Virus record (IMG/VR): IMGVR_UViG_3300010210_000031
Location: 1 to 29,893 of that record
Strand: one strand, 5' to 3'
Source of the DNA: a virus
Length of the DNA stretch: 29,893 nucleotides
Shown: one piece after another, positions 6,148 through 24,298 of the stretch
How positions within the stretch are numbered: position 1 is the first letter of the stretch
Layout of the letters: every line of letters starts with the position of its first letter
The notes under the pieces: model-generated
The model's input: the letters and a program-made list of their open reading frames with translations, nothing else
What the model was told of the DNA's origin: nothing
Database searches by the model: none
Program-made: the position numbers and the translations under genes

Positions 6148-6150
6148 AAT

Positions 6151-6342: not shown

Positions 6343-6747
6343 ATGGCAGGCGAACGCAAACAGTACGACTACCCGCCCCCTTTCTCATTGCGACTGACCT
6401 TTGAGGAACGGGCGCGCCTCGAACGTGAGGCGGGGGACATGCCGCTCGGCGCGTTCATCCGCCAGCGACTCTTTGGCGGATCGACGGTGCCGCGCAAGAC
6501 GCGCGGCAAGCGCCCGGTCAAGGACCATACCGCACTCGGGCAGCTGCTCGGGGAGTTCGGTCGCTCGCATCTGGCCAGCAATCTGAACCAGCTTGCCAGG
6601 GCGGCCAATTCCGGATCTCTGCCCGTCACGCCCGAGACCGAACAGGCGCTTTCTGACGCCTGCGCGGACGTGCGGGAAATCCGCGAGACGCTGTTTGTTG
6701 CTCTTGGCCTCTACAGGGACTCCGGCCCTGGGGAGCCGGAGCCATGA
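6343..6747 (+). CDS. MobC-like relaxosome accessory protein
   Basis: 134 residues. The N-terminal half has a ribbon-helix-helix-like start (S-L-R-L-T-F-E-E-R-A-R-L-E-R-E-A) followed by G-A-F-I-R-Q-R-L-F-G, as in MobC proteins of mobilizable plasmids. The middle has D-H-T-A-L-G-Q-L-L-G-E and the family-typical N-L-N-Q-L-A-R-A-A-N-S-G near residues 80-95. MobC proteins bind oriT DNA and help the relaxase melt and nick it. The stop overlaps the relaxase start by four bases (ATGA at 6744), so the two are translationally coupled. The reading frame is intact although the relaxase is not. Confidence 0.85.
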   Translation: MAGERKQYDYPPPFSLRLTFEERARLEREAGDMPLGAFIRQRLFGGSTVPRKTRGKRPVKDHTALGQLLGEFGRSHLASNLNQLARAANSGSLPVTPETEQALSDACADVREIRETLFVALGLYRDSGPGEPEP

Positions 6748-8023: not shown

Positions 8024-8467
8024 CAACCGGCGATACCTTGAGGTCCGGCCTGGCCTGATCCGGGCCGCCGTGCTCGGTGCCGTCAAGGACACGGCCCGCG
8101 CTCGCGCGGGCTGCCCTATTGGGCATCCTTGACCGCCACTGCGCGCGGGGCCAGTTCGGACCTCAAGGCCGGGACGGAGGAATGGCCGCCATCGGCGCGA
8201 ACAAAGGAATATGAGGGACGAGAATCGGACATTCTTGCGTCATTTGGAAGCCCTCCTCTTGGTTTATCGCATTCTTAAGGTTGGCATTTTTGACTTGTCA
8301 AAGCGGACATTAAAGCGGACACGGCCTCTGCCTTCGGACCCGCTTTGACACGGACGGCTCATGAGGCATGCGGGGAATCCGGTATGCATTCGCCGCACGT
8401 CCTGCGGTGAATAAACTTGCCGGTGCGGTGAATGTGTGGTCTAATCTCCGCAGGAGATGCGGCGATT
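8024..8467. other. Noncoding region between relaxase and Fic gene
   Basis: No gene seen. The first part holds the nested inverted repeat at 8036-8168. The second part has a TTTGAC/GTCAAA dyad at 8289-8302, the decamer TGTCAAAGCG at 8296-8305 with its exact inverse at 8341-8350, and the direct repeat AAAGCGGACA at 8300 and 8312. These look like regulator sites ahead of the Fic gene. Confidence 0.5.
8036..8168. repeat. Nested imperfect inverted repeat of 133 bp
   Basis: Outer arms: CCTTGAGGTCCG (8036-8047) and its exact complement CGGACCTCAAGG (8157-8168), extending to 18 of 20 paired positions. Inner arms: GTCAAGGA (about 8082) and TCCTTGAC (about 8125), plus a GCCCGCGC/GCGCGGGC core. As DNA it could form a cruciform, and as RNA a long branched hairpin at the end of the relaxase transcript. 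Confidence 0.65.
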
Positions 8468-9598
8468 ATGATTTGGATACACGAGAAACCCGACTGGCCC
8501 AATTTTACATGGGATGCTGCTGCCCTGGCGGACAAGCTGGCGGCGGTCCGCCATCGGCAGGGCTGTCTTCTTGGGCGCATGGGCGCGTTCGCGCTCGACC
8601 TGCGCCGCGAGGCCAGCGTTGAAACGATCACTACTGACGTTGTGACGTCCTCGGCTATCGAGGGGGAAATGCTCGACCGGGAGGAGGTGCGGTCCTCCGT
8701 TGCCCGGCGGCTCGGCCTGGATGCTGGGGGCCTGCCTGCCGCCAGCCGGGACGTTGAGGGTATCGTCGAGATGATGCTGGACGCCACGGGCGGGTTCGAC
8801 AAACCGCTGACGAAAGATCGGCTGTTCGGCTGGCACGCGGCCTTGTTTCCCACGGGACGGAGCGGCATGCGCCGGATCACCGTTGGGACCTGGCGACCGG
8901 AGTCCGCCGGTGCCATGCAGGTCGTATCGGGTGCCGTCGGGCGTGAGCGGGTCCATTTCGAGGCCCCCGCCGCCGCGCGTCTGGATCAGGAAATGGCTGC
9001 GTTCCTGGATTGGTTCGACCGCGCGGGCGGTCCTGATCCAGTCCTCAAGGCCGGGATCGCGCATCTGTGGTTCGTGACCGTCCACCCCTTCGAGGATGGC
9101 AACGGGCGGATCGCGCGAGCCATCGCGGATATGGCACTCGCCCGCGCTGATGGGACGGCGGAGCGGTGCTACAGCATGTCGGCCCAGATCGAGGCCGAAC
9201 GGAAAACCTACTACGCCGAACTCGAACGTCAGCAGCGCGGGACACCCGATATCACGGATTGGCTGGATTGGTTCCTGGACTGTCTGGGCCGGGCGATCGG
9301 CGCGGCGGAAGGCATGCTCTCGTCGGTCGTGTTCAAGGCGCGCTATTGGGATGTCGTGAACCGGCATCCCGTCAACGAACGCCAACGCCTGATCCTTGGC
9401 CGCATGCTGGACGGCTTCAAGGGAAACATGAACACGTCCAAATACACCAAGATCGCCAAGTGTTCAGCAGATACGGCCCTGCGCGACATCACTGCGCTTG
9501 TGGCCCATGGCCTTCTCGTCAAGAACCCCGGCGGGGGGCGCAGCACGAGCTACCGGCTTTTATCGGCTGAAGAATTGGCCGACAGCAACGGCGTGTAA
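8468..9598 (+). CDS. Fic-family protein (AMP transferase-like) with N-terminal inhibitory motif
   Basis: 376 residues; ATG 8468 is chosen over an upstream in-frame start because AGGAGAT lies about ten bases before it and the N-terminus (W-x-x-x-x-P-x-W-P-x-F) is the DUF4172 domain usual in this subfamily. The inhibitory helix motif S-S-A-I-E-G-E is at residues 61-67 (class II, inhibitor upstream of the Fic core) and the catalytic H-P-F-E-D-G-N-G-R is complete at 206-214. The C-terminal 50 residues look like a winged helix (T-K-I-A-K-C-S-A-D-T-A-L-R-D-I). Fic enzymes transfer AMP, or occasionally other groups, to hydroxyl side chains of target proteins; the target here is unknown. It stands alone on the plus strand as island cargo. 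A toxin, stress or defence role is inference. Confidence 0.92.
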   Translation: MIWIHEKPDWPNFTWDAAALADKLAAVRHRQGCLLGRMGAFALDLRREASVETITTDVVTSSAIEGEMLDREEVRSSVARRLGLDAGGLPAASRDVEGIVEMMLDATGGFDKPLTKDRLFGWHAALFPTGRSGMRRITVGTWRPESAGAMQVVSGAVGRERVHFEAPAAARLDQEMAAFLDWFDRAGGPDPVLKAGIAHLWFVTVHPFEDGNGRIARAIADMALARADGTAERCYSMSAQIEAERKTYYAELERQQRGTPDITDWLDWFLDCLGRAIGAAEGMLSSVVFKARYWDVVNRHPVNERQRLILGRMLDGFKGNMNTSKYTKIAKCSADTALRDITALVAHGLLVKNPGGGRSTSYRLLSAEELADSNGV

Positions 9599-10278: not shown

Positions 10279-11112
10279 CTATTCGGCGGCGAGCGCCTCG
10301 GTCTGCTGCCGTGCGTTCAGGAAGTCCACAGCCCGCTGGGCGTGGGCGGCGGCCTGGAAGATGAAGCGCTTGTCCGAACGGAGCACTTCGAGCCAGCTCC
10401 CGATATAGGCGGCATGATCCTCGCGGGTCTCCGGCGTGATGTACAGGTCAGCACACAGGAACGCGGCTCCGAGTTCGGCGACCAGCTCTTCGCGGGCATA
10501 GCCTTCGTCGCCGAAGGTCTTGCGACCGAAATCGCGGTCAAGGCGCGTGGGGTGGCGAGTCCAGTGCGTGACCTCGTGCCCGAGCGTGGCGTAGTAGCTC
10601 TCGGCATCGCGGAACGTCTCGAACGGCGGCATCTGGACGTAGTCGGGCTGGAGGGCGTAATAGGCCCGGTTGCCGCCATGGCGAATATCGGCGCCGGTGG
10701 CGGTGAAGAACTGCTCCAAACTCGCATCGCGCTGGATGTCGGGATTGGGCGGCTGTGCCGGAGCATGGAAGTGACCGGGCAGGCCGTCGATCTGCTCGAC
10801 GTTGAAGACGGTGTAGACCTTCATGTAAGGGATGGTGACATCGACTTCCTGGCCGCGATCATCAAGCTCGGTCTTGTGCAGCTTGTCGGCGTAGACAACG
10901 GCTTCGCCGCGCTCGCCCTTGCGGACCTGACCACCGAGGGCCTGGGCTTGCTTGTAGGTCATCCAGATCGGGGCGGTGAATTCCCGCTCGACTGCGGCGG
11001 CCCAGAGCATGATGATGTTTGCGCCCTGGTAGGGGATGCCATTGCGCCGACGGCGCCGACCGCCATCTTCGCGGCCCATACCGCACGGCCAGACACGGGG
11101 GAGGAACGGCAC
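10279..11112 (-). CDS. ArdC-like antirestriction protein (zincin metallopeptidase), N-terminus eroded
   Basis: The conserved part begins near 11045 with R-R-N-G-I-P-Y-Q-G-A-N, then W-M-T-Y-K-Q-A-Q-A-L-G-G-Q-V-R-K-G-E and Y-T-V-F-N-V-E-Q-I. The metallopeptidase motif H-E-V-T-H-W-T-R-H-P is complete and is followed by R-E-E-L-V-A-E-L-G-A-A-F, which supplies the third ligand. ArdC proteins bind single-stranded DNA with the N-terminal domain and protect incoming DNA from host restriction. The usual first 40 or so residues, which start the ssDNA-binding domain, are missing or out of frame: residues before the RRNG motif are atypical and the only start in frame is a GTG at 11112 without a good ribosome site. 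It may be inactive or start differently. The peptidase domain itself looks intact. Confidence 0.8.
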   Translation of the reverse strand: MPFLPRVWPCGMGREDGGRRRRRNGIPYQGANIIMLWAAAVEREFTAPIWMTYKQAQALGGQVRKGERGEAVVYADKLHKTELDDRGQEVDVTIPYMKVYTVFNVEQIDGLPGHFHAPAQPPNPDIQRDASLEQFFTATGADIRHGGNRAYYALQPDYVQMPPFETFRDAESYYATLGHEVTHWTRHPTRLDRDFGRKTFGDEGYAREELVAELGAAFLCADLYITPETREDHAAYIGSWLEVLRSDKRFIFQAAAHAQRAVDFLNARQQTEALAAE

Positions 11113-11438: not shown

Positions 11439-12155
11439 TTAGGCCATCACCTGCTCTAAGCGCTCCTTCCGCTTTTTCCAGTCTGGCATGACACGTTCAA
11501 GGAAATCGAGGAAAGCAGGGCCGTGGTTCGGTTCGGCAATGTGGCACAGCTCGTGGGTGATGACGTAGTCGATGGCGTCAACCGGCGCCTGCACAAGCCG
11601 TGTGTTCAGCATCAGCCGACCGGCAGGCGACATCGATCCCCAGCGCTGGCGGATCTGGCGCACAATGATGCCTTTCGGTCTGTAGGCCTCCGGATCGGGG
11701 AAGCGCTTCAGGCACTCTTCCAGCCGCTCCCTGAACTTCACGCTCGCGCGCTGCCTGTACCACCCTTCCACCATCTCGCGGGTTATTTCCGGGCGGCGCG
11801 GCGCGTGGGTCTGAACGACCAGGAAACCGCGTATAAGCTTCACATTCGCCTGAACGTGATGAACGACTTTCAAACGATATTGGCGACCGAGATAAAGGTG
11901 GGTTTCGCCGGGTACGTATTGCCGATCCGGCGTGCGCGGCATGAACTGCTGAAAGTAGCGCTGCTGCCGAAGAACCCATGCGGCACGTTTGCGGACCTTT
12001 TCGGTGATAGCCTCCATGGTGGCGTCCGGCGGGGCCGCCACGACGACCTGCGTATCCGGTTCGACGGCGATCTCAAGCGTTTTACGAGACCGTCGCACGA
12101 CAACGAACACAATGGGATCGGAACCGTACAGGATTTCGCCCCGTTCCATACTCAT
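11439..12155 (-). CDS. M48-type (YgjP/DUF45) metallopeptidase, last gene of the hsd operon
   Basis: 238 residues. The C-terminal zinc motif is H-E-L-C-H-I-A-E-P-N-H (HExxH with a third His), preceded by R-W-G-S-M-S-P-A-G-R-L-M-L-N-T-R, the family signature; relatives are YgjP-like zinc peptidases. The start ATG at 12155 overlaps the HsdR stop (ATGA), so it is the distal member of the operon. Genes of this family are often found directly after hsdR, where the role is not established; proteolytic control of HsdR is one possibility. No signal peptide, so probably cytoplasmic. Confidence 0.9.
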   Translation of the reverse strand: MSMERGEILYGSDPIVFVVVRRSRKTLEIAVEPDTQVVVAAPPDATMEAITEKVRKRAAWVLRQQRYFQQFMPRTPDRQYVPGETHLYLGRQYRLKVVHHVQANVKLIRGFLVVQTHAPRRPEITREMVEGWYRQRASVKFRERLEECLKRFPDPEAYRPKGIIVRQIRQRWGSMSPAGRLMLNTRLVQAPVDAIDYVITHELCHIAEPNHGPAFLDFLERVMPDWKKRKERLEQVMA

Positions 12156-15100
12156 CCCGGAAACCTTGCCCGCGCCAGGTCCATCAGGCGCGACTGGAGA
12201 TCATCCATTGTTTCGATGGACAGGTGGATGCCCAGTTCATCCCGGACGACATCGAAGAAATAGTCGTCGATGGCGTTCCGAATGCTGTTCTCAACGATAT
12301 CGTTCGACCAGACACCAACAATGTGCCGGGACTTGATGATGTCGATCACGGCCAGCGCAATGTCTGCCACCGTATCCTCGGAGAGAGCATCGCCCCCGGT
12401 TTCTTTCATCGGGCCTGACAGGATGCCGAAGAACGCCTGCCCATCCTCGTCATCACGAATGGCCTGCGGGACGTGCTTTCCACGATCCTTGTTGGCCATA
12501 CGACTGGCCAGATCGATCACATTTTTTAGATACTGCTGTTCCGAGAGTCTCTTTTCACGGTACTCCTTGATCGTCTCTTCGAGCATCTCGGAGAAGTGCT
12601 TATAGAAGGCAGGGTCGGCATCCATGTTCTCGGTGATCGCGCGCCGGGTCGCGCTGGCGATCCGGTCGGCCTTCGAGGCGTCGGTGACACCCGTTTCCTT
12701 GACCACAGCCTTCAAGGCGTTGGGATCGTTTATGTTCACGGTCTCGATGATCGTCTGAGCGGGCTGCGCCGTGACATGGTCGTCGAGGAGTTTTTGGATT
12801 TTTGGCTCGTATTCCTTCTGGTCGATGGTTTCCTGATACCGAAGTTGAACAGATTTCTTAAGCTCCTGGAACTGTTTCCAATCCTGTTTCATGCGCTCGA
12901 TTTTATTCTCTTCGAACACATCGTAAATTTTTTCCGAGGATAGGGCTATGTGCAGGCATCGACTGAACGCTCGCAAACGATCATAGAAATCATGCCGGAG
13001 CGCTTCGTCGGCCAGATAGACTTCGAATTGCTCCATGTCCTTTTTGTTTTTGACCGGATTGAACAGGTCCCAGAGCTGGTTGTGAAGCTGGGGCAGCTTG
13101 CGGATTTCCTCGCGGATGTCGTGGACCGTGTTGGCCACGTCCCCCGGCTCATAGCCCTCGAACGCACTGTAGGTCGTCAGAGCCTTGTCCAACTCCCCGA
13201 GCAGGCCCTCGTAGTCGATGATGAAACCGAACTGCTTCTCGACATCATCGGCTTCGAACAGCCGGTTCACGCGGGCAATCGCCTGCAACAGGTTATGTTC
13301 GCGCAGGGGCTTGCAGACATAGAGAACCGTATTGCGCGGCGCATCGAACCCCGTCAGGAGCTTTGAGACCACGATCAGGATTTCCGGATGGCCGGAGCCT
13401 TTGAACGCACCGATAAGCTGCTTGTTGTACTCATCCTCGCTGCCATACCGATCCATCATCTCTTTCCAGAAGGCCCGGACGCGGTCCTTCGACTCTTTGT
13501 CCACCTCCTCGTTTCCCTCGTTCTCGCTGGGCGGGGAAATGACGATGGCACTGGAAACGTGGCCGATCTCGTCGAGCACCTCCTTAAAACGGATCGCGGC
13601 CAGTTTGGACGGCGCGACGAGCTGGGCCTTGAACCCGGTCCCCTGCCAGTGCTGGCGGTAGTGCTCGGAGATATCGAACGCTTTGGCGCGGATGACCTGG
13701 CTGGTTTTCCCGAGGACCTCCATGCGGGCGTACTTGCGCTTCAGGTCGGCGCGCTGCTGGTCAGTCAGTCCGGCGCACAGTTTCTCGAACCACGGGTCGA
13801 GCGCGGGACCGGAAACCTGCTGTTCGACCATGCGCCCTTCGTACAGGAGGGGCACGACGGCCTCGTCGGCGACGGCCTCATCGATGGGATATTTGTGGAT
13901 CAGCCCCCCGAAGGTGGCGAGCGTGTTCCGTTCCTTTTTGAGGAGCGGCGTGCCGGTGAAGCCCAGATAGCAGGCCTTGGGCAGAAGGCGGCGCATCTTG
14001 ATGGCGAACGTGCCGTAACCTCCCCGCCGACCGCTCTGCGTTCGATGGCTCTCGTCGACCAGGACGAACAGGTTCTTGTCCTCGTCCGGCGCCACACCCG
14101 TGCGGGTCGCGGTATCGAACTTGTTGACGATGGTCGTCACAAGGGGTTTTCGGTCACGGATCAGGTTGAGGAGGTGTCCGCCGCTTTTGGCCCGGATCGG
14201 CTCCATCTCGCACGATTTGAACGTGCCCTTGATCTGAACGTCGAGGTCGTCGCGGTCGGTGACGATCATCAGGCGCGGGTTCGGGATGTCCGGATCCAGC
14301 GCCAGCGCACGCGCCAGCATCACCATCGTCAGCGACTTGCCGGAGCCCTGGGTGTGCCAGATCACGCCGCCCTTGCGCCGCCCGTCGACGTCGTCGTGTT
14401 TGACGCGCTCCACGGCGGCGCGGATACTGAAATATTGCTGGTGCCGGGCAATCTTGCGTTCCCCACCGTCGAACACCGTGAAGCGCCGAATGAGATCCAG
14501 AAGGCGCGCCGGGCGACACAGGGCATGCAACGTCCGGTCCTGCGCCGTGACTGCCCGATCCCCGGCGGTCCCCATTTCCTCGAAATATCCCCGTGCGCCC
14601 TCGAAGTCGCCGGTGAACACCGCGTCTTTTTCGGCATCCGTCATGGGCCGGTTCGCCAGCGCCGCGATCTCCGCGTCGTCGTCCTCGGAATCGCGCCATG
14701 TCTGCCAGAACTTTTTCGGCGTGCCGACGGTCGCGAACCGCGCTTCGGCGCGGTTCATCGACATCAGCATCTGCGCGAAATGAAACAGGTGCGGAATGCT
14801 GTCCTCGCCCTGATACCCGATGAGCTGGCTGTCCGCCTTTTTCAGGTCCTGCGTGGGGCGCTTGTTCTCAATGACGATGAAGGGAATGCCATTGACGAAC
14901 GCGACGATATCGCAGCGCTTGGTCTCCGTGCTGCCGGTGCGCTCGACGGAGTATTCGACCGTAACGTGATAGGCGTTGTTCTCGGGATGGCCCCAGTCGA
15001 TATACCGAAACGAATAGCTTTTGGAATCCCCGGCAATGGTCTTCGAAATGGTCGTGCCGAGCACGAGCGTATCGTAAATCTCCTGATTGGTCGCCCGCAG

Positions 15101-15367
15101 GCCCTTGATCCGGTCGGGCGTCGGCTTCAGCCGCCGCAGAGCCTCGTGGGCATCCTCCAGATCAAAGGGGTAGTCGGTGCCCCGGTGGGAAAACCGGTTG
15201 ATCTTGAGCGTCTGCGCGACAAGAACGTCGTCGAGCGTCACCCCACGCAACCGCCCGCCGCGCAAGGCCAGCGCCTGCGCCTGCGAAAGCGGCTGAAACC
15301 CCATCGCCACCAGCATCTGCATGGCGGGGATTTGCGACTGATGTTTTTCGGCGGGGTTGAAGTTCAT
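12152..15367 (-). CDS. hsdR: Type I restriction enzyme, R (motor/nuclease) subunit
   Basis: 1071 residues, full length for HsdR. The N-terminal endonuclease domain has the PD-(D/E)xK-type residues D153, E167 and K169 (C-D-I-V-A-F then V-I-E-N-K-R-P). The translocase follows: Walker A H-T-Q-G-S-G-K-S at 338-345, D-E-S-H at 438-441, L-G-F-T-G-T-P at 468-474, and a late helicase motif L-L-T-G-F-D-A-P-R-N with Q-A-I-A-R-V-N-R. The C-terminal third is helical and would bind the M2S complex. R subunits cut unmodified DNA after ATP-driven translocation, and need HsdM and HsdS. The start at 15367 overlaps the kinase stop by ATGA. No break is seen, so the restriction activity is probably intact. Confidence 0.96.
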   Translation of the reverse strand: MNFNPAEKHQSQIPAMQMLVAMGFQPLSQAQALALRGGRLRGVTLDDVLVAQTLKINRFSHRGTDYPFDLEDAHEALRRLKPTPDRIKGLRATNQEIYDTLVLGTTISKTIAGDSKSYSFRYIDWGHPENNAYHVTVEYSVERTGSTETKRCDIVAFVNGIPFIVIENKRPTQDLKKADSQLIGYQGEDSIPHLFHFAQMLMSMNRAEARFATVGTPKKFWQTWRDSEDDDAEIAALANRPMTDAEKDAVFTGDFEGARGYFEEMGTAGDRAVTAQDRTLHALCRPARLLDLIRRFTVFDGGERKIARHQQYFSIRAAVERVKHDDVDGRRKGGVIWHTQGSGKSLTMVMLARALALDPDIPNPRLMIVTDRDDLDVQIKGTFKSCEMEPIRAKSGGHLLNLIRDRKPLVTTIVNKFDTATRTGVAPDEDKNLFVLVDESHRTQSGRRGGYGTFAIKMRRLLPKACYLGFTGTPLLKKERNTLATFGGLIHKYPIDEAVADEAVVPLLYEGRMVEQQVSGPALDPWFEKLCAGLTDQQRADLKRKYARMEVLGKTSQVIRAKAFDISEHYRQHWQGTGFKAQLVAPSKLAAIRFKEVLDEIGHVSSAIVISPPSENEGNEEVDKESKDRVRAFWKEMMDRYGSEDEYNKQLIGAFKGSGHPEILIVVSKLLTGFDAPRNTVLYVCKPLREHNLLQAIARVNRLFEADDVEKQFGFIIDYEGLLGELDKALTTYSAFEGYEPGDVANTVHDIREEIRKLPQLHNQLWDLFNPVKNKKDMEQFEVYLADEALRHDFYDRLRAFSRCLHIALSSEKIYDVFEENKIERMKQDWKQFQELKKSVQLRYQETIDQKEYEPKIQKLLDDHVTAQPAQTIIETVNINDPNALKAVVKETGVTDASKADRIASATRRAITENMDADPAFYKHFSEMLEETIKEYREKRLSEQQYLKNVIDLASRMANKDRGKHVPQAIRDDEDGQAFFGILSGPMKETGGDALSEDTVADIALAVIDIIKSRHIVGVWSNDIVENSIRNAIDDYFFDVVRDELGIHLSIETMDDLQSRLMDLARARFPG

Positions 15368-16440
15368 TTTCCGGTCACCACAAATTTTTTGAAGTCTGCG
15401 ATGATCTTGTTCGCCTGTTGCTGCGTCAGGCCACGCTTGCAGAACTTGGTGAGGCGCTGTGTATTGCCTGAGGACACATTGCGTTTAATGCTGGTTACGT
15501 CGAGCTTCCCGCCTGGAACCGGTGAGACTGAGTACGAGAACTCACAGGTCTTGCATATACCGACTTCTTTCCCAGATGCGTCGACGGTCCAGTATCCCGA
15601 GTAGTCAAGCTTTTCCAGCGCCCTCCGCATCTCGAGGGCGCTGGAATACCGTTGAGCTGGATCAGGATGAACGGCCTTCAAGATGACCCGCCGAACCGCC
15701 GCGGGGATATGGCACCCGAAGTCTTTCGCCTGGAGCAGCTTCCCTGACGCCACATCTTGAGCGTATTGCGTTGGACCAATTCTAGCCCAGTTTGCCCGCA
15801 GGTGCTCTAGGTGGATCAGCAGTCGAGCCAGCGTCATCCCGACCTGAAAGATGTCGGAACTGATGCCGATATTGCCCGTAGCCAAGACTTCAGGTGCTCG
15901 GTGGAAAACATAAGAGGATGGTGCCATAACCGGCGCGCTATTGGACGAAATGCCGGTGATCCCATAGTCGGATAGCATAGCCTGTTGCTGCGACCCCAGC
16001 AGGATGTTCCCCGGCTTAATGTCGTTGTGATAGAAGTTGCGGGCATGGAGATATTCCAGCCCCTGAAGGATATCTCGAGCGATCTGGAGGACTGCTGGCA
16101 GAGGCAGGTAGCCAGCCGGATTGGCCAACGTCTCAACCGAGCCGTTTGGCTGGTAGTCCATGGCAAGAATGACGACGTGATCTCCAAAGACTTGCACCAC
16201 ATCCGCCTGATGGACATAGACGAGATTGTTGTGTGCGAGTCGATTGCCGATCTGAGCTTCGCGCAGACGCTGATCCACCGAAACTCCCGGCTGTAGGATC
16301 TTGACTGCGTAGTCGCGCTGGACGGCCAGGTCGCGAGCAAGCCAGACCTCACCGAAGCTGCCCGCGCCAATCTTTCTGATAAGCTGGTACTTGTAGAGTC
16401 TCGCGCCGGGGGTAAGGACAACGGGGACGAGTTGGGTCAT
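15364..16440 (-). CDS. Ser/Thr protein kinase embedded in the hsd operon
   Basis: 358 residues from the ATG at 16440, which overlaps the preceding stop (ATGA); an in-frame codon at 16461 is also possible. Hanks-type kinase motifs are present: glycine loop G-A-G-S-F-G at 25-30, Lys47 in Y-A-V-K-I-L, Glu61 in helix C, catalytic loop Y-H-N-D-I-K-P-G-N-I-L (Asp140, with Asn replacing the usual Arg), S-D-Y-G at 157-160 in place of DFG, and A-P-E at 182-184. It therefore looks catalytically competent, with a non-RD catalytic loop. After the kinase lobe (about residue 290) comes an 70-residue tail with a C-K-T-C pair and a Lys-rich end, of unknown role. No membrane segment, so it is soluble, unlike PASTA or receptor kinases. 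Its placement between HsdS and HsdR is unusual. Confidence 0.9.
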   Translation of the reverse strand: MTQLVPVVLTPGARLYKYQLIRKIGAGSFGEVWLARDLAVQRDYAVKILQPGVSVDQRLREAQIGNRLAHNNLVYVHQADVVQVFGDHVVILAMDYQPNGSVETLANPAGYLPLPAVLQIARDILQGLEYLHARNFYHNDIKPGNILLGSQQQAMLSDYGITGISSNSAPVMAPSSYVFHRAPEVLATGNIGISSDIFQVGMTLARLLIHLEHLRANWARIGPTQYAQDVASGKLLQAKDFGCHIPAAVRRVILKAVHPDPAQRYSSALEMRRALEKLDYSGYWTVDASGKEVGICKTCEFSYSVSPVPGGKLDVTSIKRNVSSGNTQRLTKFCKRGLTQQQANKIIADFKKFVVTGK

Positions 16441-16904
16441 AGATTCCGCAGCCTCCACCACGCCGCATTCACGGCGTCCGCCATCTTATTGTCCCAATAC
16501 TTGTCAGTTCTACCGACGCGATTTTCGGCATGCTGCTTTGTGTCCTTGCTGGTCGTCTGCATGGAGGCATAGATCTTAAGCTCGACCGGCATTCCGCTAT
16601 GCGCACAGGCGAGAACAATGGCGGCATCGGAATGAGCCGACTTGCGCTTCGCTTTCGTGTCGTTCTGCGTGTATTCGTTCTGTTTTATAATCACTCTCAC
16701 GACGTCGGGGTGAGCATCTAAGATGGCCAAGACTTCGCGATACAGCCAGTCCAACCTTTCGGCGTCTGCGTCCTCCCCGATCGATACGGGGACGGACAGC
16801 TTATTGTCGCCCGCTGCGTTCTCCAACGTGTAGACGCCCCCCATTTCGGACACCACTGCATAGCGGGGAGCCTTTGGGTCACCGCGAAATCCGAGAACCT
16901 TCAT
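16437..16904 (-). CDS. RNase H/RuvC-fold-like protein, unknown function
   Basis: 155 residues. The ATG at 16904 is chosen because GAGGAGG lies about eight bases upstream and it overlaps the hsdS stop by ATGA. It opens with strand M-K-V-L-G-F-R-G-D-P (Asp9), followed by a second strand (Y-A-V-V-S-E). A later strand carries V-R-V-I-I-K-Q-N-E-Y (Glu77). Then K-R-K-S-A-H-S-D-A-A-I-V-L-A-C-A-H-S-G-M-P-V resembles the helix and strand that follow in RuvC-like resolvases, and the C-terminus has M-A-D-A-V-N-A-A (Asp143), the position of the last acidic ligand. The acidic spacing suggests an RNase H-fold nuclease, but this is fold-level inference. It is coupled to the kinase that follows, so the two probably act together. 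Confidence 0.75.
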   Translation of the reverse strand: MKVLGFRGDPKAPRYAVVSEMGGVYTLENAAGDNKLSVPVSIGEDADAERLDWLYREVLAILDAHPDVVRVIIKQNEYTQNDTKAKRKSAHSDAAIVLACAHSGMPVELKIYASMQTTSKDTKQHAENRVGRTDKYWDNKMADAVNAAWWRLRNL

Positions 16905-18175
16905 GCCAAAACCTCCTCTGAATTCACGCGCCACTCCCCGGTCAGGAGTTTTTGCATGAGACCGCGTTTTTGGCGCTTGAGGACATCAATCTGTTGTTCA
17001 AGAGCATCAATTTCTGCCTTTGACGTGCGAATGACTTCTGCAATGGCTCTTTGCTCCGGGAGTGGCGGCACCGGAAAGGGCAGCTTTGAAAATTCATTCC
17101 AACGGAGACTGCCCCGCCGATCAACTGACGCGCTGGTACTGACTTCAAAAATATGCCGATACAGAGTCGTTTTCAGAACCGCAATCGCGTATTCAACATC
17201 CACCCGCTTCTTGTGGAACCGGAAAACGGTGTATATTGGACTGACCAACCCTATATTAATGATATTTTGTAGTCCAATTGAGCCCTCTTCAATATGATTA
17301 CTCGGGAACCCGAAATCATTGCGGTAGATTTTTTTGTATCCTGACAGATCAGAGCTATAGACCTGCTTCTTAAAATACTCCAGAGATCTAACGAACCCGT
17401 CGTGCTTCGAGCAGGAGAGCACCTCGCCAATCTCCCCATTGCTGGCGCGCTCCGATATTTCGGTGGCGAGTGCTCCAATCGGTTCACAGTTCCATGACTC
17501 GGGCAATGTGAACCACCGATGCCGATGACTCCTTTCGCCTTCCCGAAACTGCTCCAGTTGCCGCAAACCAAAAATTATTTCGTGCGTCAGCCCGAGATAA
17601 AGAGTGTGTTTGCGCGCCCGAAGCGCCTCCAGCTTCTCGATCGCGTCGTCCCAGGTGCGCAGGATTTCGGTGATTCTCACCTGTTCCGACATAGGCGGAA
17701 GGAGGACGGGGAAAGCCTTCAACTGCGTGGAGTTAATGCTGGCGAGGTTCGTACTTTGTTTAGAAGATCCTTGAAAATACCTCTTCCCATACGATGAAGC
17801 GGCCTGCAAGGCGAGAAACTCAGGAAGCAAAAAGGCACGATCAGGGCGCACCGCAAACACATGATTCTGATGCAAACAGAGATCTATTTGCCCCTTCCAC
17901 ACGGCTCCCCTGCCAAGTTTGTCGAAATCCCCCCCCTCAGTAAAAAGAACATCACCGGACCGAAGAGCGTGCCTCTGTATATAACGTGCCTCCACCTGAA
18001 TTCTCTTGACTTCTTGAAGATCAATATAGCCGTCTTGGACATTGGCGACACGGAGATAAGGCAGCGATACTGCCGATCCATTGATCTCTTTGCCTTTGGC
18101 AATACCCGTTTGGATCTCGGCCACTTCGGCCAGCTTACAGACGTTCCAGTCGTGGGGAACTGTATGATTATGCAT
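16901..18175 (-). CDS. hsdS: Type I restriction-modification specificity subunit (full length)
   Basis: 424 residues from ATG 18175, with AAAGGGGGG upstream and an eight-base overlap with the RhuM-like stop. Two target-recognition domains (about residues 1-160 and 215-370) are each followed by a conserved helix: L-P-P-M-S-E-Q-V-R-I near 159 and P-P-L-P-E-Q-R-A-I-A near 370, with long coiled-coil spacers. HsdS determines the two half-sites recognised by the complex. TRDs are variable, so the sequence cannot be predicted. Part of the second TRD is more AT-rich than its neighbours, as is common for exchanged recognition domains. Confidence 0.93.
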   Translation of the reverse strand: MHNHTVPHDWNVCKLAEVAEIQTGIAKGKEINGSAVSLPYLRVANVQDGYIDLQEVKRIQVEARYIQRHALRSGDVLFTEGGDFDKLGRGAVWKGQIDLCLHQNHVFAVRPDRAFLLPEFLALQAASSYGKRYFQGSSKQSTNLASINSTQLKAFPVLLPPMSEQVRITEILRTWDDAIEKLEALRARKHTLYLGLTHEIIFGLRQLEQFREGERSHRHRWFTLPESWNCEPIGALATEISERASNGEIGEVLSCSKHDGFVRSLEYFKKQVYSSDLSGYKKIYRNDFGFPSNHIEEGSIGLQNIINIGLVSPIYTVFRFHKKRVDVEYAIAVLKTTLYRHIFEVSTSASVDRRGSLRWNEFSKLPFPVPPLPEQRAIAEVIRTSKAEIDALEQQIDVLKRQKRGLMQKLLTGEWRVNSEEVLA

Positions 18176-19193
18176 CACGCCCCCCTTTCTTCGGGACGGA
18201 TGCCGTGTCAGCAATCCGCTGCAACTCCTCCAGTTCGTCCACCTGCTCGGCGGCGGCGCGGTCGGCGTCCTTGCGGGCGAGGTCGAAGGTGGCGTAGCGC
18301 TGATGGGCGATCTGTTCGGCCTGCCGGGCGGAGACGGTTCCGGCGTTGCGCAGGATGGGCAGTTCGTTCCCGGCCAGGAAGTTGTCGAGGATCGGTTCCC
18401 ATTCCGCGAGGCGCATGGTCTGGCGGCGCCTGGCCCGGAAGTCGGCGGTATCGAGGAACATGGTCACGATCTGGTTCAATTCGCTGATCTCGGGTTCGCC
18501 GAGGTAGTTCTTGGCGACGGTCACATCCGCCTTGCGCACGCGCTTGCCCTTCTTCGACGTCAGGCCCATGTCCGGCGCGGCTGGATCGGCGCGCTCAACA
18601 ATGAGCTCCCCGGCGGTGTGGCCGGTCACCGCGTAGAGCATCTTGTTCTGGATTTTGGCGTAGAAGTCCTGAACGGCCTGCGCGTTGGAGGCGTAGTCCT
18701 CGCTGAGGGCCAGAATGTCGCGGACCTTCTGATACACCCGCGCTTCGGACGCCCGGATATCGCGAATCCGCGCGATGAGTTCTTCGAAATAGTCGGCAGC
18801 GGGGTCCTTCAGGCGGGCATCGTTCATGGCGAAGCCCTTGACGAGATATTCCCGCAGGACCGTCGTCGCCCAGCGCCGGAACTGCACCCCGCGCGGGGAG
18901 CGCACGCGGTAGCCAACGGACAGGATGACATCGAGGTTGTAGGCATCGACCTCGCGGGAAACCTCGCGCTTTCCCTCCTGTTGAACTCTCCGGAATTTCC
19001 GGATAGTTGCCGCCGGATCGCACTCCCCGTCCTCGAACAGGTTGCCGATGTGCTCGTTGATCGTGCGGATATCCTTGTCGAACAGCTCGGCCATCTGGCG
19101 CTGCGTCAGCCAGGCCGTGCCGTCAACAGCGCGAAGCTGAATCTCGGTCAGGCCGTCTTCGGTTGTATAGAGGATCAGTTCGCCTTCAGACAT
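18168..19193 (-). CDS. RhuM-family protein in the hsd operon
   Basis: 341 residues from ATG 19193; a GTG at 19199 is in frame and closer to AAGGAG, so the start is uncertain by two codons. It overlaps the HsdM stop by eight bases. The N-terminal half is typical of the RhuM/virulence family: W-L-T-Q-R-Q-M-A-E-L-F, then I-R-T-I-N-E-H-I, F-R-R-V-Q-Q-E-G, N-L-D-V-I-L-S-V-G-Y-R-V-R-S and F-R-R-W-A-T-T-V-L-R-E-Y. The C-terminal half has F-L-A-G-N-E-L-P-I-L and a helical Arg/Glu-rich tail. RhuM-like genes are common inside type I restriction loci between hsdM and hsdS. Their role is unsettled; a DNA-binding accessory or regulator is likely from the N-terminal helix-turn-helix-like region. Confidence 0.9.
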   Translation of the reverse strand: MSEGELILYTTEDGLTEIQLRAVDGTAWLTQRQMAELFDKDIRTINEHIGNLFEDGECDPAATIRKFRRVQQEGKREVSREVDAYNLDVILSVGYRVRSPRGVQFRRWATTVLREYLVKGFAMNDARLKDPAADYFEELIARIRDIRASEARVYQKVRDILALSEDYASNAQAVQDFYAKIQNKMLYAVTGHTAGELIVERADPAAPDMGLTSKKGKRVRKADVTVAKNYLGEPEISELNQIVTMFLDTADFRARRRQTMRLAEWEPILDNFLAGNELPILRNAGTVSARQAEQIAHQRYATFDLARKDADRAAAEQVDELEELQRIADTASVPKKGGRDA

Positions 19194-20703
19194 CGACACC
19201 CAGCTCCTTCAGATGCCCGGCCATGCGCGCGCGCACGTCGGCGAGTTCGGCCTCGATCTTGTCGATCTCCTTTTGCAGGGCGGCGACGTCGATGTCCTCC
19301 TCCGGCTCGAACGTGTCCACATAGCGCGGAATGTTGAGGTTGAAGTCGTTCTCGGCGATCTCCTCGGGGCTGGCGAGGTGGGAGAACTTGTCGATCTCCG
19401 CCCGGTCTCGATACGTGCTCAGGATCTTGTCGATGTGCGCGTCGTCCAGCACGTTGCGGGCCTTGCCGGGGCTGAACTCTTTGCTGGCGTCAATGAACAG
19501 GACGTCGCGCCGGTTCTCATTGGCCCCGCCATCCTCGCGGGAGCGGTCGAAGACCAAAATGGCAACCGGAATGCCGGTGGTGGTGAACAGGTTGGCGGGC
19601 AGGCCGACCACGGCGTCGAGAAGGTTTTCCTCGATCAGCGCCTTGCGGATCCTGCCCTCGGCCCCGCCCCGGAACAGCACCCCATGCGGCACGATGACGG
19701 CGACGCGCCCGCTCTGGCGCTTGGCGATCTCGATCATGTGCGTGATGAAGGCATAGTCGCCCTTGGACTTGGGCGGCACGCCGCGCCAGTAGCGTTTGTA
19801 GGGATCACCTGCGGCATCTTCCGCCCCCCACTTGTCCAGCGAGAACGGGGGATTGGCGACGACGATATCGAATTTCATCAGGTGGTCGCCCTCGATCAGC
19901 GCCGGGCTGTTGAGGGTGTCGCACCATTCGATCCGGGCGGCGTCCTTGGCGTGCAGGAACATGTTCATCCGCGATAGCGCCCAGGTGGCCCCGTTCACCT
20001 CCTGCCCGAACAGGGCGTAGTTGTCGGAGCCGGTGGCCTTGGCGGCCTCGATCAACAGCGAACCGGACCCGCAGGCCGGATCGCAGATCGTGTTGCCCGG
20101 TTCCGGGGCGGCCAGCGCCGCCAGCACGCGGGAGACGGCGGAGGGCGTATAGAACTCCCCGGCCTTCTTCCCGGCATCGGATGCAAAGCGCTCAATCAGA
20201 TAAATGTAGCAGTTGCCGATAATATCCTCCGTGACCCGTGAGGGGCGGAGGTCAAGTTCAGGCTTGTAAAAGTCTTCAAGCATGTTTTTCAGGCGGCGGT
20301 TGCGGTCCTTGACCCGCCCGAGATTGGGTTCGGAGTTGAAGTCGATGTTCCGGAATACGCCTTCCAGCTTGGTCCGGTTTTTATCCTCGATCTGCTCCAG
20401 CGCCATGTTGATGAGCTCGCCGATGTTGGCGGCGTCGCGCTGTTCATAGAGGTCGTAGAAGCTGGCTCCCTCGGGCAGCACAAAGCGTTCCCGCTCCAGG
20501 CGGCGGCGGATGCGGGCCTCCTCCCCGGCGAACTGTTTGCGGTAGCTCTCAACGTGGTCGTTCCAGTGGTCCGAAATGTATTTCAGGAACAGCATCACAA
20601 GGATGTAATCCTTGTACTGCCCTGCATCGACAACGCCCCGAAATGTGTCGCACGCCGCCCAAGCGGTTTGGTTAATCTTTTCTTGCTGAATTTTGTCGTT
20701 CAT
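19186..20703 (-). CDS. hsdM: Type I restriction-modification methyltransferase subunit
   Basis: 505 residues. Start ATG 20703 with AAAGGAA upstream. An N-terminal helical domain (residues 1-160) is followed by the N6-adenine methyltransferase core: F-Y-T-P-S near 185-188, AdoMet motif I D-P-A-C-G-S-G at 208-214, and the catalytic N-P-P-F at 284-287. HsdM methylates adenine in the sequence set by HsdS and, with HsdR, forms the restriction complex. Length and motif order are normal and the frame is open throughout. A 12-bp hairpin at 20727-20755 sits just before it and may tune expression of HsdM and the genes after it. Confidence 0.97.
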   Translation of the reverse strand: MNDKIQQEKINQTAWAACDTFRGVVDAGQYKDYILVMLFLKYISDHWNDHVESYRKQFAGEEARIRRRLERERFVLPEGASFYDLYEQRDAANIGELINMALEQIEDKNRTKLEGVFRNIDFNSEPNLGRVKDRNRRLKNMLEDFYKPELDLRPSRVTEDIIGNCYIYLIERFASDAGKKAGEFYTPSAVSRVLAALAAPEPGNTICDPACGSGSLLIEAAKATGSDNYALFGQEVNGATWALSRMNMFLHAKDAARIEWCDTLNSPALIEGDHLMKFDIVVANPPFSLDKWGAEDAAGDPYKRYWRGVPPKSKGDYAFITHMIEIAKRQSGRVAVIVPHGVLFRGGAEGRIRKALIEENLLDAVVGLPANLFTTTGIPVAILVFDRSREDGGANENRRDVLFIDASKEFSPGKARNVLDDAHIDKILSTYRDRAEIDKFSHLASPEEIAENDFNLNIPRYVDTFEPEEDIDVAALQKEIDKIEAELADVRARMAGHLKELGVDV

Positions 20704-20762: not shown

Positions 20763-21068
20763 TCAGATAAGTCCACAGGGCGGATTGAACTGCGTCCGCA
20801 ACTGCCGCTCAATCACCATTCGATTGGCGTGGTCAGCGTAGATCGCCGCGACGCCGAACTCAGCGTAGCCCTGGCCACGCCAACAGGGTTTGCGGTCGTG
20901 GTTTTCAACACGATCGCGAACGTTCTGTGATTCTCCGACATCAACGACACTCCAGTTTGAATACTGGTCGTTGCGTCCAAGAATCACATAGACACCGGAT
21001 TGGTGTTCGAGCGGTTGCGTATTGCCGAAAGGACCATCGGCCTGATAGCCTGCGATTTGGATAGGCAT
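20763..21068 (-). CDS. GIY-YIG-like small protein
   Basis: 101 residues from ATG 21068, eight bases after the half-HsdS stop. The pattern S-G-V-Y-V-I-L (GIY position) and V-V-D-V-G-E-S (YIG position), then R-D-R-V-E-N-H-D-R-K-P-C-W and a late I-E-R-Q-L-R-T-Q-F-N-P-P-C, fits a compact GIY-YIG nuclease-like domain; the Glu in IERQL and the Asn in FNP are plausible active-site positions. Confident as a fold suggestion, weaker as an active nuclease because the second motif is divergent. It is the second gene of the operon, before hsdM. Role unknown: it could nick DNA or be an inactive DNA-binding relative. Confidence 0.65.
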   Translation of the reverse strand: MPIQIAGYQADGPFGNTQPLEHQSGVYVILGRNDQYSNWSVVDVGESQNVRDRVENHDRKPCWRGQGYAEFGVAAIYADHANRMVIERQLRTQFNPPCGLI

Positions 21069-21076: not shown

Positions 21077-21727
21077 TCATTTGTTCGCCTGTTCCGATTT
21101 GACCGTCGGAGGACCAGTCCGGCGGCCACCCAAAGGCCCAGCCTCATTCCCGTGAGGCTGGGTTTTTCGCACCCGCTCAAGCAGGGCGAAATTCACGAAC
21201 TTCTGCTTCTTCTCGGCCAAAACATTTAGAAGCGCGCTCTCCCGATCAGACAGAGACGCAATTTCCACAATCCGGTTTTGAGTGGAAATATCTGGAATAT
21301 CGAGATCAATATTTTCTAAACTCGACTTCGGAATCATTCGCATATTCGTCCCGCGCGCGCATTCGTCAAAGTAACGTTGTGCGGGGGCTTGGTTAACAAT
21401 CCATGCCAAAAACTTTGGGGTGATAATATCCTTGTTCGGCCGCAGGATAATCAAGGGCAGTAGAATTAGAAGCGGCTCATTAAGGTTTTCGGGAATGGCT
21501 GCGGCAACTGTTTGATCCCCGCGCGGCCTGAACAAAACGTCCCCGGAGCGGGCGAAATATCGGTCAGCGATACCATCGCTTGCCATTCTGGTCAGATTCG
21601 ATGGATCAATTCCGCGCAGGGACACATCGCCCATCTGTACAACGGGAACACCGCCGCGCTCGACCGGCTCAAGCCGCCCGCGCAGGGTGAGGCCTGTTTG
21701 AATAGATGAGATTGCCGATAGGCGCAT
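21077..21727 (-). CDS. Half-size HsdS-like specificity protein, first gene of the operon
   Basis: 216 residues, start ATG 21727 with AGGAGA upstream. It has a single target-recognition domain with S-subunit hallmarks: S-S-I-Q-T-G, V-V-Q-M-G-D-V, S-G-D-V-L-F-R-P-R-G-D near residue 80, F-L-A-W-I-V-N and P-K-S-S-L-E-N-I-D-L-D-I-P, then a helix (I-V-E-I-A-S-L-S-D-R-E-S) as in HsdS spacers. Half-size S proteins can dimerise to give symmetric recognition, or add a second specificity. A full-length HsdS is encoded 3 kb downstream. The last 30 residues are Gly/Pro/Arg-rich, unlike HsdS, and are coded over a plus-strand terminator-like hairpin, so the 3' end may have been replaced. Confidence 0.8.
   Translation of the reverse strand: MRLSAISSIQTGLTLRGRLEPVERGGVPVVQMGDVSLRGIDPSNLTRMASDGIADRYFARSGDVLFRPRGDQTVAAAIPENLNEPLLILLPLIILRPNKDIITPKFLAWIVNQAPAQRYFDECARGTNMRMIPKSSLENIDLDIPDISTQNRIVEIASLSDRESALLNVLAEKKQKFVNFALLERVRKTQPHGNEAGPLGGRRTGPPTVKSEQANK
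21137..21167 (+). terminator. Terminator-like hairpin inside the 3' end of the half-HsdS gene
   Basis: CCCAGCCTCA (21137-21146), loop TTCCCG, TGAGGCTGGG (21153-21162) and TTTTT (21163-21167). It is a textbook plus-strand intrinsic terminator, yet no plus-strand gene ends here. It may be a relic from an earlier neighbour and mark the replaced end of the half-HsdS gene. Confidence 0.6.
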
Positions 21728-22726: not shown

Positions 22727-24298
22727 TTATCCGACGCCGACAAAGGGGGCCAAGGCACGCATGACATTCAGCCCGGGGCGCGTGAAGTCCACGGCGCGCG
22801 GGACCGGGCGTCTCCGGTAGTTTGCCGGGACATCGAAAACGGGCCTGCCCCGACAATCCCGGAACCGGGCATCGAGAAAATACGGCACTCGATAACAGGC
22901 GGCAGGGTTCGCGTTCGCCAGAACGAGGATCTGCACAGCGGGATGCAGGGTCATGATCTCGTCTGGCATCATCAGGGCGCGACCTCCGGCTTGGTCGCCC
23001 TGGGCGAAATAGTCTGGATCCCCGACCAGGGTTTGCCGCCGGATGGCGGTTTCGTAGCTGAGCTGTTCGAACGTCCCGGTGCCGCACAGTTTGCTGAGAT
23101 ATTCAGCGGTGAGGAGATCCCGCGTGCCGAAGGCCTGAATGACGGCGGCGTTGGCGATGAAGGTCTGCCAGCGTTCGCCATAGATGCTCTTGGCCTGAGC
23201 GAAGTCCTGAAAGATGGGATGCAATTGCATCCCCGATCCGGCCAGAACGCCGAAAGCGTCGAGCAGGACATCCAGTTTTCCGACCGCGCCCATCTCGTCC
23301 AGCATGAAAAGGACGGATGGGGTCGGTTTGACGGGTATTTGGTTGATCGCGTCGATGGCTTGGGCGATCAGCAACCGCAGAAGCCGCCCGTGGGTCCGCA
23401 GACGCTCGGGCGGCAGCACGAGATAGATCGTCAGTGGTTCCGAAAGATCGGCGAAGTCAAAATCGCTGACGGACAGACTCTCCCGAACCTGCTCGCTTTC
23501 CAGGAAGTGTGTGTTCTGCTGAGCGGTGGCCAGGATATCGCCGTACTGACGTTCGGGCTTGGACAAAATCCGCCCGGCGGCGGCGCGGACATAGCGGTTT
23601 GCACTGTGCAGCATGCCGGGGCGCGTGCCGTCCTCGTCGCCCGCGACATAGTCGCGGAATTCAGCGGGCGGCATGTTCAAAAGATCGCGCACACGCCCGA
23701 GAGTGCGTGTCTCGCTTTCTCGGACGTCCGATGTGACCTGAAGGATCAGGCCCGTGATGAAGGCTCGGGCCTCGTCGGACCAAAACGGAGAACTGTGCGT
23801 TTCGCCGATGACCAGGGCATCGGCGAGTAGGCAGGCATCGTCATAGAAACTTGGGCTGTCCGGTTGGATGGCGTCCAAAGGATTGAACCGCGCGGGTGTG
23901 CGCCCGAGGAGAGGAGAAACGGCGTTCATGGGATCGAAGATGAACGTCTCTTGCCGGAGACCGGCTTCCCGAAAGGAGCACGTCGCGGCGGCGACTTCTC
24001 CGCGCGGGTCCAGCACGATTGCCGATCCGGGATAGGTGAGCAGCGCGGGAATGCAGGTCGATACCCCCTTGCCGGAGCGGTTGGGGGCGACGGTCAGCAT
24101 GTGCCGCGCACCGCCGTAGGTCACGGGCACGGCCCCGTGACCCCGGTCTTCCGATGGCAGATAGCCGAAGACGTGAGGGCCGCCGGGGCCGTAACCGCGT
24201 TCGGCAAGGTGATGACGGTCCGCGAAGCGGGCGGTGCCATGCAGGCCCGGGTCCCGCTGGTAGATCCATCGCCGGTTTTCCGCGTTGGCTTGGCTCAT
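22727..24298 (-). CDS. VirD4/TraG-family coupling-protein-like ATPase
   Basis: 523 residues from ATG 24298, which overlaps the VWA gene stop by ATGA. Early residues G-T-A-R-F-A-D and A-P-N-R-S-G-K-G-V (Walker A, 71-79) are typical of VirD4/TraG, as are I-V-L-D-P-R-G-E and the Walker B F-M-L-D-E-M-G (331-337). Other conserved parts: F-N-P-L-D-A-I, T-H-F-L-E-S, F-Q-D-F-A-Q-A and G-T-R-D-L-L-T-A-E-Y-L. Coupling proteins deliver relaxase-DNA to a type IV channel. Unlike VirD4 and TraG there is no N-terminal membrane pair, as the Walker A begins at residue 71. No VirB-like genes are in the island, so it would need a helper, or does something other than conjugation. Confidence 0.93.
   Translation of the reverse strand: MSQANAENRRWIYQRDPGLHGTARFADRHHLAERGYGPGGPHVFGYLPSEDRGHGAVPVTYGGARHMLTVAPNRSGKGVSTCIPALLTYPGSAIVLDPRGEVAAATCSFREAGLRQETFIFDPMNAVSPLLGRTPARFNPLDAIQPDSPSFYDDACLLADALVIGETHSSPFWSDEARAFITGLILQVTSDVRESETRTLGRVRDLLNMPPAEFRDYVAGDEDGTRPGMLHSANRYVRAAAGRILSKPERQYGDILATAQQNTHFLESEQVRESLSVSDFDFADLSEPLTIYLVLPPERLRTHGRLLRLLIAQAIDAINQIPVKPTPSVLFMLDEMGAVGKLDVLLDAFGVLAGSGMQLHPIFQDFAQAKSIYGERWQTFIANAAVIQAFGTRDLLTAEYLSKLCGTGTFEQLSYETAIRRQTLVGDPDYFAQGDQAGGRALMMPDEIMTLHPAVQILVLANANPAACYRVPYFLDARFRDCRGRPVFDVPANYRRRPVPRAVDFTRPGLNVMRALAPFVGVG

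Follow-up and report, generated by a model that had tools for sequence, protein, structure and literature searches.

Second-line defences embedded in type I restriction operons are known from a few cases (i.e. PrrC and DarTG2). In the type IC operon EcoprrI, an embedded extra gene encodes PrrC, which is described as being held by its type I enzyme and released when a phage attacks that enzyme (PMC3874165, PMC2610378, PMC3874168), i.e. as a second line that acts once restriction is defeated (PMC3874165). In the RRDM island of enteropathogenic Escherichia coli, the DNA ADP-ribosylation toxin–antitoxin pair DarTG2 lies between hsdS and hsdR in an operon with an M48 protease gene, and the whole island is described as anti-phage in E. 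coli (PMC12255303). Serine/threonine (Ser/Thr) kinases also underlie anti-phage defence, as in staphylococcal Stk2 and in KKP, where the kinase is described as the toxin of a toxin–antitoxin module (PMC11341870). Here we analyse two genes that lie between hsdS and hsdR in a 29.9-kb virus record (IMG/VR record IMGVR_UViG_3300010210_000031, positions 1 to 29,893; the whole stretch of 29,893 nucleotides is hereafter the window): RNH, a small protein with a predicted RuvC-like fold (155 aa; 16437..16904, minus strand), and Kin, a Hanks-type Ser/Thr kinase (358 aa; 15364..16440, minus strand). The pair is exchangeable cargo in a slot of the type I operon, and we estimate a probability of about 0.5 that it is a two-gene anti-phage module carried in the cassette slot of a mobile operon.

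An earlier note on this DNA had likened the pair to PrrC-type embedded second-line defences, and this likeness fits. In contrast to EcoprrI, a protein kinase partnered by a RuvC-fold protein is the candidate effector here, and neither RNH nor Kin gives a Pfam row for a PrrC or RloC nuclease at E 1. The position is the same as in the RRDM island, whose operon is similar and also contains a metalloprotease gene, whereas its cargo is DarTG2 (PMC12255303). KKP and Stk2 differ from the pair, in which one kinase is accompanied by a RuvC-fold protein within a type I operon; membership of KKP was rejected because hsdS and hsdR enclose a single kinase gene and none for a phosphatase. Membership of MADS (NCBIfam MAD6, 134 bits versus a cut-off of 460; MAD2 methyltransferase, 54 versus 720) and of BREX (PglW, 38.9 bits versus a cut-off of 990) was likewise rejected. 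The kinase domain of Kin has its best PADLOC matches in the MADS kinase MAD6 (145 bits) and PD-T4-6 (135 bits), but both span residues 22–285 only.

Other cargo found in the same slot is included among the PADLOC PDC models, which are candidates embedded in defence systems (i.e. PDC-S34, PDC-S21 and PDC-M04B), whereas RNH matches no PADLOC model at E 0.1. We take the source of these models to be a preprint by Payne et al. That preprint excepted, no pair of a RuvC-like protein and a kinase in a type I operon was found in PADLOC v2 or the literature searched. Cargo at this position of type I operons is already known, and the RNH–Kin pair is probably new as cargo.

Exchangeable cargo between hsdS and hsdR

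The RNH–Kin pair is present in 12 loci including the window, and in all 12 Kin directly follows RNH and the pair lies behind hsdS or a remnant of it. The possibility that the pair is unique to the window, without conserved linkage, is thus rejected, and the arrangement that the earlier note had described (an RNase H-fold-like protein and a Hanks-type kinase between hsdS and hsdR) is borne out by the open reading frames (ORFs), Pfam and hhalign. The relatives of RNH are found on plasmids of Novosphingobium and Methylocystis (two M. parvus records gave the same values and one was used), in five genome loci (Defluviimonas twice, Ameyamaea, Halovulum and Rhodanobacter), on one IMG/VR contig and in three further genomes reached through HsdR or wider RNH searches. 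Viral contig scans with RNH, A1, HsdR and A4 gave a single relative, which was found as both L009 and L056 (loci and genomes are denoted here by L and G numbers), and the phage collection searched with RNH gave one match, at E 9.

Full-length hsdR follows Kin in 10 of the 12 loci. In L006 (1–9255), hsdR is split, with codons 1–446 after Kin and codons 430–1064 inverted before the half-length hsdS gene; this split near the contig end may reflect a genuine inversion or a fault in the assembly. In the Rhodanobacter locus L007 (8669–10600), RNH and Kin are intact, of hsdS only the tail is left and of hsdR only the first codons, and hsdM has no match within the 18.5 kb examined; the pair may have outlasted its operon, or the operon may have decayed recently. 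The most distant locus, L075, has the same gene order with an HsdR 36% identical to that of the window and an RNH 44% identical to that of L002. Judged from its first residues, an ORF near the L075 operon is integrase-like.

The genes of the pair are coupled to their neighbours. In the window, hsdS (16901..18214, minus strand; Pfam Methylase_S, 1.4e-19) forms the left slot edge and hsdR (12152..15367, minus strand; TIGR00348, 445 bits, cut-off 284.55) the right one, and hsdS/RNH, RNH/Kin and Kin/hsdR each overlap by the four bases ATGA. This confirms the four-base overlaps that had been noted; with the hsdR/ygjP overlap, also ATGA and deduced from the ORF ends and an ATG start, they extend through every junction from hsdS to ygjP. 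Kin is read from its ATG (coordinate 16440); a GTG start is also listed, at 16461, but is unnecessary. Across 11 loci (i.e. without L075), the hsdS/RNH junction is ATGA in 10 (a one-base TGATG in L049; hsdS is a remnant in L007), the RNH/Kin junction in 9 (GTGA in L001; CTGATG, a one-base overlap, in L049) and the 3′ end of Kin in 10 (GTGA in L002), with the HsdR match of L001 beginning ∼150 nt later. In L075, the genes abut without four-base overlaps. The ratio of non-synonymous to synonymous substitution rates (dN/dS) is 0.06–0.14 in 13 of 14 gene pairs for RNH and Kin, dS being saturated in one, and both genes are under purifying selection.

Beyond G001, the pair is found in none of the 398 genomes of the phylum sample and, as a true match, in none of the 385 of the class sample. 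Within the family of G001 it occurs in three of 198 genomes (G003, G843 and G936), and in two other families in none of 100 and, as a confirmed match, in none of 97, apart from one match at E 0.006. Matches in G825 (in the family of G001) and G1256 (E 0.006–0.007) were set aside as chance, the former after ORF inspection. Besides G001, an RNH profile of eight sequences matched in the class sample only two ordinary ruvC genes (E 0.001–0.004), in L010 and L011, which are not RNH; the ORF after ruvC in both is presumably RuvA-like.

We then surveyed the slot itself with HsdR rather than RNH as the query, so that the survey carries no bias toward RNH–Kin cargo. Ten of twelve plasmid records at 60–80% HsdR identity were read, all ten with at least 70% identity and 99–100% coverage; the class sample of 385 genomes added G487, G296 and G021; and 16 genomes in a family sample of 394 had an HsdR match at 1e-200. 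These 16 include G001, G1002 (50%), and G780 and G1034, which were already counted as plasmids, such redundancy between plasmid records and genomes being judged from positions only. Leaving out G001 and L050, L053 and L055 (slot past the contig end or broken hsdR), the survey covers 22 close HsdR relatives; for L032, one of these, the left slot edge lies beyond the contig end. L003 (G001), L004, L006 and L009 stand outside the 22, the last three being found through RNH only, as do L002, L024–L029, L034–L039, L042, L043, L050, L053–L055 and L075 (HsdR below 70% or slot hidden).

In the backbone halfS–hsdM–hsdS–X–hsdR–ygjP, the X slot is filled in all 22 relatives by nine cargo classes: DUF3800 alone (five), DUF6119/TIGR04141 (four), RNH–Kin (four, i.e. 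L001, L005, L048 and L049), HAD (two), Shedu + HAD (two), DUF4917 (two), Shedu + DUF3800 (one), DUF3800 + PDC-M04B (one) and Kiwa (one). Matches are strong for KwaA (1.2e-78), KwaB (6.2e-120) and Shedu (2.6e-167), and the HAD and DUF4917 cargo correspond to the PADLOC candidates PDC-S34 and PDC-S21. Pfam and PADLOC searches confirmed representative cargo, with Pfam alone for DUF3800 and DUF6119, and PDC-M04B was tested on L042, outside the 22, with L044 matched by BLAST; other cargo was assigned by BLAST to listed members or from record annotation, L033 and L051 being read beside L047 and L046. Outside the 22, hsdS lies directly against hsdR in L054 (i.e. an empty slot), while the slot holds Abi in L043, DUF3800 + PDC-M04B in L034 and L042, HAD in L035 and RNH–Kin in L002 and L075. 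The extra genes between hsdS and hsdR are thus coupled to the operon and exchangeable among related operons, as expected of embedded cargo.

Some further features of the slot were observed. DUF3800 and a 151-aa PDC-M04B protein form a two-gene cargo in L044 (5044–6293), L034 (10853–12018) and L042 (7586–8745), and the 151-aa protein of L042 has a weak PBECR2 match. The slot of L036 (6505–7464; HsdR 35%) holds a 319-aa protein without a Pfam or PADLOC match. Similar ORFs of ∼70 aa (YWTQQR-DGKWESKREGA) lie between hsdS and differing cargo in L046 (6221–6451) and L052 (5994–6197). A second variable position lies between hsdM and hsdS, where RhuM, GIY-YIG (L002 and L042) or nothing is found (compared in L012, L015, L017, L031, L040, L046, L048, L051, L002 and L042).

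Pairs of operons with closely similar backbones carry differing cargo. Over hsdR–ygjP, DNA identity is 90.7% (3,939 bp) between L003 (RNH–Kin) and L044 (DUF3800 + M04B), 92.1% between L009 (RNH–Kin) and L044, 89.7% between L012 (HAD) and L048 (RNH–Kin), 83.6% between L002 (RNH–Kin) and L042 (DUF3800 + M04B), and 97.7% (4,468 bp) between L016 (DUF3800) and L052 (HAD). In the 10 locus pairs compared, the hsdR start codon, or a point no more than 12 bases from it, marks where DNA homology begins again, and its left edge is the last stretch of hsdS in nine; in L002/L042 it lies earlier, in the GIY-YIG gene. On an HsdR tree built by a quick method from 26 loci (the 22, the window, L003, L004 and L009), the nine cargo labels require 16 changes, compared with 16.6 (s.d. 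1.0) for shuffled labels, and 214 of 500 shuffles needed 16 or fewer. HsdR ancestry therefore does not predict cargo. The claim that the pair belongs to the coupled operon and is not a chance insertion stands as far as coupling and conservation are concerned, but not as to belonging: the pair is exchangeable, and operons with 90–92% identical hsdR–ygjP DNA carry other genes. The cassette may be swapped by recombination within the conserved hsdS and hsdR ends.

Fold and conserved residues of RNH and Kin

RNH matches no Pfam or NCBIfam family above the cut-off. Profile comparison nevertheless points to RuvC: hhalign against a set of 11 RuvC proteins (L064 excluded) gave 94.6% in local mode (residues 1–108) and 94.0% in global mode, and 94.8% (score 52.4) with 12 RNH sequences, compared with a best of 6.2% (score 23.3) among 100 column shuffles and 12.1 for the reversed control. 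Comparisons with DUF3800, HAD, YgjP, HsdM, Kin and the half-length HsdS each gave <1%. The five best Foldseek matches of an AlphaFold2 (AF2) model of RNH are all RuvC (best E 1.1e-4), as are the eight best of VIA (Z 7.1–5.6, middling by the tool's own note). Together with the ruvC genes that the eight-sequence RNH profile picked up in the class sample, these results support a RuvC/RNase H-like fold for RNH. It is, however, not a plain RuvC, as it gives no Pfam row for PF02075 at E 1 and its catalytic site is rewritten. DUF3010 (PF11215), described as a family close to the resolvases that consists of one RNase H-like domain (PMC3985635), is similar in this respect, but was rejected as well, since no Pfam row appears at E 1 and hhalign gave 5.5% against one DUF3010 sequence.

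We then compared the RNH sequences with the RuvC catalytic acids, which we take to be D7, E66, D138 and D141 in E. coli numbering. The strand-1 Asp (D7) aligns with RNH R7, which is Arg in 12/12 sequences, in both MAFFT and hhalign. The strand-4 Glu (E66) falls on column 75 (Q/T/K/A/S) in MAFFT and in hhalign with 11 sequences, and on column 72 (I/M/V) in hhalign with 12; neither column holds an acid in any of the 12 sequences, and in no alignment does this Glu fall on the neighbouring K74 or E77. The last-helix D138 and D141 align with K140 (K/G/H) and D143, or, in the MAFFT alignment of 11 sequences, with D143 and N146. R7, K74, E77 and D143 are invariant in all 12 sequences, and D9, the acid nearest strand 1, is N or A in two of them. 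The first 22 residues of the RNH model are unaligned in VIA, where the top RuvC alignments begin at residue 23–24, and residues 1–5 and 7–13 have a predicted local distance difference test (pLDDT) value below 50; the assignment of R7 to RuvC D7 therefore rests on the sequence alignments and not on the model.

Only one of the four RuvC catalytic acids (D143) is kept in place, and a RuvC-type two-metal nuclease is for this reason unlikely, a role in binding or sensing appearing more likely. The suggestion that the small protein is a nuclease is thus not upheld, RNH being probably unable to cut in the usual RuvC way. A structure unlike RNase H with no conserved acidic residues, which the earlier note had named as a refutation, is not what is seen: the model resembles RuvC, and both E77 and D143 are invariant.

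Kin contains a Pfam Pkinase domain (E = 2.7e-35), and its nearest solved structures by sequence are PknB kinases (5e-25). In all 11 sequences compared, the Gly-rich loop (G25, G27 and G30), K47, E61, H138-N139-D140, K142, N145, D158-Y159-G160 and A182-P183-E184 are invariant, with HND in place of HRD and DYG in place of DFG. Kin thus carries the catalytic Lys, Asp and Asn and the DFG Asp of Hanks-type kinases (Pfam, PknB alignment), and its key residues are intact, as had been stated before. Given that these residues are invariant, Kin is expected to be an active kinase. As a query against plasmids, Kin found only the Novosphingobium kinase, if two matches with E values of 4 and 6 are set apart; this search does not reach as far as the Methylocystis kinase.

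The C-terminal domain of Kin (residues ∼283–358) is strand-rich with a final helix in the AF2 model, where the block of residues 301–350 has pLDDT 58–90 and residues 281–300 are below 50. Foldseek found no match to the Kin model at E 0.001 (Borrelia Pur-alpha reached a probability of up to 0.93, but at E 0.23), and VIA gave a best Z of 4.5, with no Pur-alpha among the best 50 matches listed. We therefore give this domain no fold name.

The operon and its surroundings

The type I operon of the window runs on the minus strand from 21727 to 11439, in the 5′ to 3′ order half-length hsdS, 101-aa ORF, hsdM, rhuM, hsdS, RNH, Kin, hsdR and a YgjP-like metalloprotease gene; with hsdM, hsdS and hsdR in one operon (Pfam and NCBIfam matches, gene order and overlaps), it is a type I restriction–modification system. 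All of the following genes lie on the minus strand. The operon opens with the half-length hsdS-like gene (21077..21727; PADLOC Specificity_I, 2.4e-23), which precedes hsdM in relatives too; it is additional to the full hsdS and may provide another specificity or pair with the full-length subunit. The 101-aa ORF between this gene and hsdM (20763..21068) has a weak match to the PADLOC candidate PDC-S14 (1.4e-06) and is present also in L016, L034 and L052. The methylation subunit gene hsdM (19186..20703; Pfam N6_Mtase, 5.8e-100; TIGR00497, 285.8 bits, cut-off 242.75) is followed by a RhuM-family gene (18168..19199; Pfam Virulence_RhuM, 1.9e-104; PADLOC PDC-S05) between hsdM and hsdS, and the YgjP-like zinc metalloprotease gene (11439..12155; Pfam YgjP-like, 9.3e-56) closes the operon.

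Just past the operon, on the same strand, lies an ArdC-type antirestriction gene (10279–11112; ArdcN + MPTase-PolyVal), and in L016 a gene with a zincin-like metallopeptidase domain likewise lies near the operon. Elsewhere in the window (1480–9598 and 22727–25329) there are portal-like, Mom-like, MobC/NikA-like, relaxase, Fic, TraG-like and VWA genes. Taken together, the portal, Mom-like, MobC/NikA-like, relaxase, TraG-like coupling protein and ArdC-type genes suggest that the window is not a plain phage but probably a mobilisable element that contains pieces of phage origin.

Possible functions of the RNH–Kin pair

Because the slot also holds the established anti-phage systems Kiwa and Shedu as well as candidate systems, anti-phage activity is our best guess for the RNH–Kin pair, whose function is inferred. 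An effector kinase controlled by its partner would be the simplest use of the two proteins. Kin would act as the effector that phosphorylates host (or phage) proteins and halts growth once restriction has been bypassed; RNH, no longer cutting, would bind either DNA (branched or from phage) or the HsdMSR complex, holding Kin off until this contact changes; and translational coupling would keep the brake, the kinase and the restriction subunits in step. The scheme would follow that of EcoprrI, a kinase taking the place of the tRNA nuclease PrrC. Several points weigh against this proposal. That RNH is a brake or sensor is a guess based on its altered active site and on its being always paired with Kin. 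The RNH model is weak (pLDDT 62, predicted template modelling score (pTM) 0.62), its RuvC matches in Foldseek have query TM-scores of just 0.33–0.42, and the Kin model is weaker (pLDDT 44, below 50 for 242 of 358 residues), with an unconvincing catalytic domain. Much of the other cargo is DUF3800, DUF6119 and HAD, for which we do not take a defence role as proven, and the rarity of the module limits comparative power. A bolder version, which we regard as tentative and rather doubtful, is that the pair represents a new class of defence, in which a RuvC fold that has lost its catalytic acids (the strand-1 Asp to Arg and probably one C-terminal Asp to Lys) responds to disturbance of the HsdMSR complex or to DNA that is branched or carries anti-restriction marks, and activates an infection-aborting kinase, type I operons serving as interchangeable chassis.

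The pair might instead serve restriction itself, with Kin phosphorylating HsdR or HsdS (i.e. restriction alleviation) and RNH sensing damaged or branched host DNA. Such a role would suit genes positioned and coupled inside the operon, and HsdR of EcoKI is reportedly threonine-phosphorylated (PMC3874165). A dedicated regulator should, however, track its target, whereas HsdR does not track cargo across the tree; operons with 90.7–92.1% identical hsdR–ygjP DNA carry unrelated genes (L003, L005 or L009 versus L044), and in L007 the intact pair accompanies a truncated hsdR, with no hsdM match in the 18.5 kb examined. As near-identical HsdR proteins do without Kin, this explanation is weakened and is not our first choice; we consider it unlikely. 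That RNH is a nuclease still active through a rewired site, switched on by phosphorylation and cutting phage DNA, recombination intermediates or host DNA, appears more unlikely still. The relation to RuvC and the constant acids E77 and D143 speak for it, and a shifted site is conceivable because E77 lies two residues past the RuvC Glu column in one alignment; yet D7 is replaced by Arg throughout, E66 falls on non-acidic columns, D138 is replaced by K140 (K/G/H) except in the one alignment where D141 becomes N146 instead, and even the acid nearest strand 1 is not constant.

Location on plasmids or on elements with mobility genes, as seen for several loci, would also fit a selfish stabiliser of the toxin–antitoxin type, in which Kin poisons cells that lose the element and defence is secondary, and KKP offers a precedent for a kinase toxin (PMC11341870). 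The slot-mates Kiwa and Shedu are, however, dedicated defence systems. Restriction operons moreover stabilise their carriers themselves, and we hold the stabiliser explanation to be improbable. A passenger pair without any function in the operon, kept by shared descent only, is very hard to reconcile with the low dN/dS of both genes, the invariant Kin residues, pairing in all loci down to 44% identity and mostly conserved overlaps, although the pair is rare and the cargo mobile.

A defence module carried as cargo remains our preferred reading. At the level of the operon family, the embedded-cargo principle is seen at scale, with nine kinds of cargo and clean edges within one family of type I operons. 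Backbones that differ in cargo at 98% DNA identity (L016/L052), and at 84–92% for pairs that include RNH–Kin, offer natural comparisons by which to ask if the restriction enzyme controls its cargo or is simply co-expressed with it. If RNH is indeed a sensor, it would represent a RuvC fold that has been converted from a cutter to a switch.

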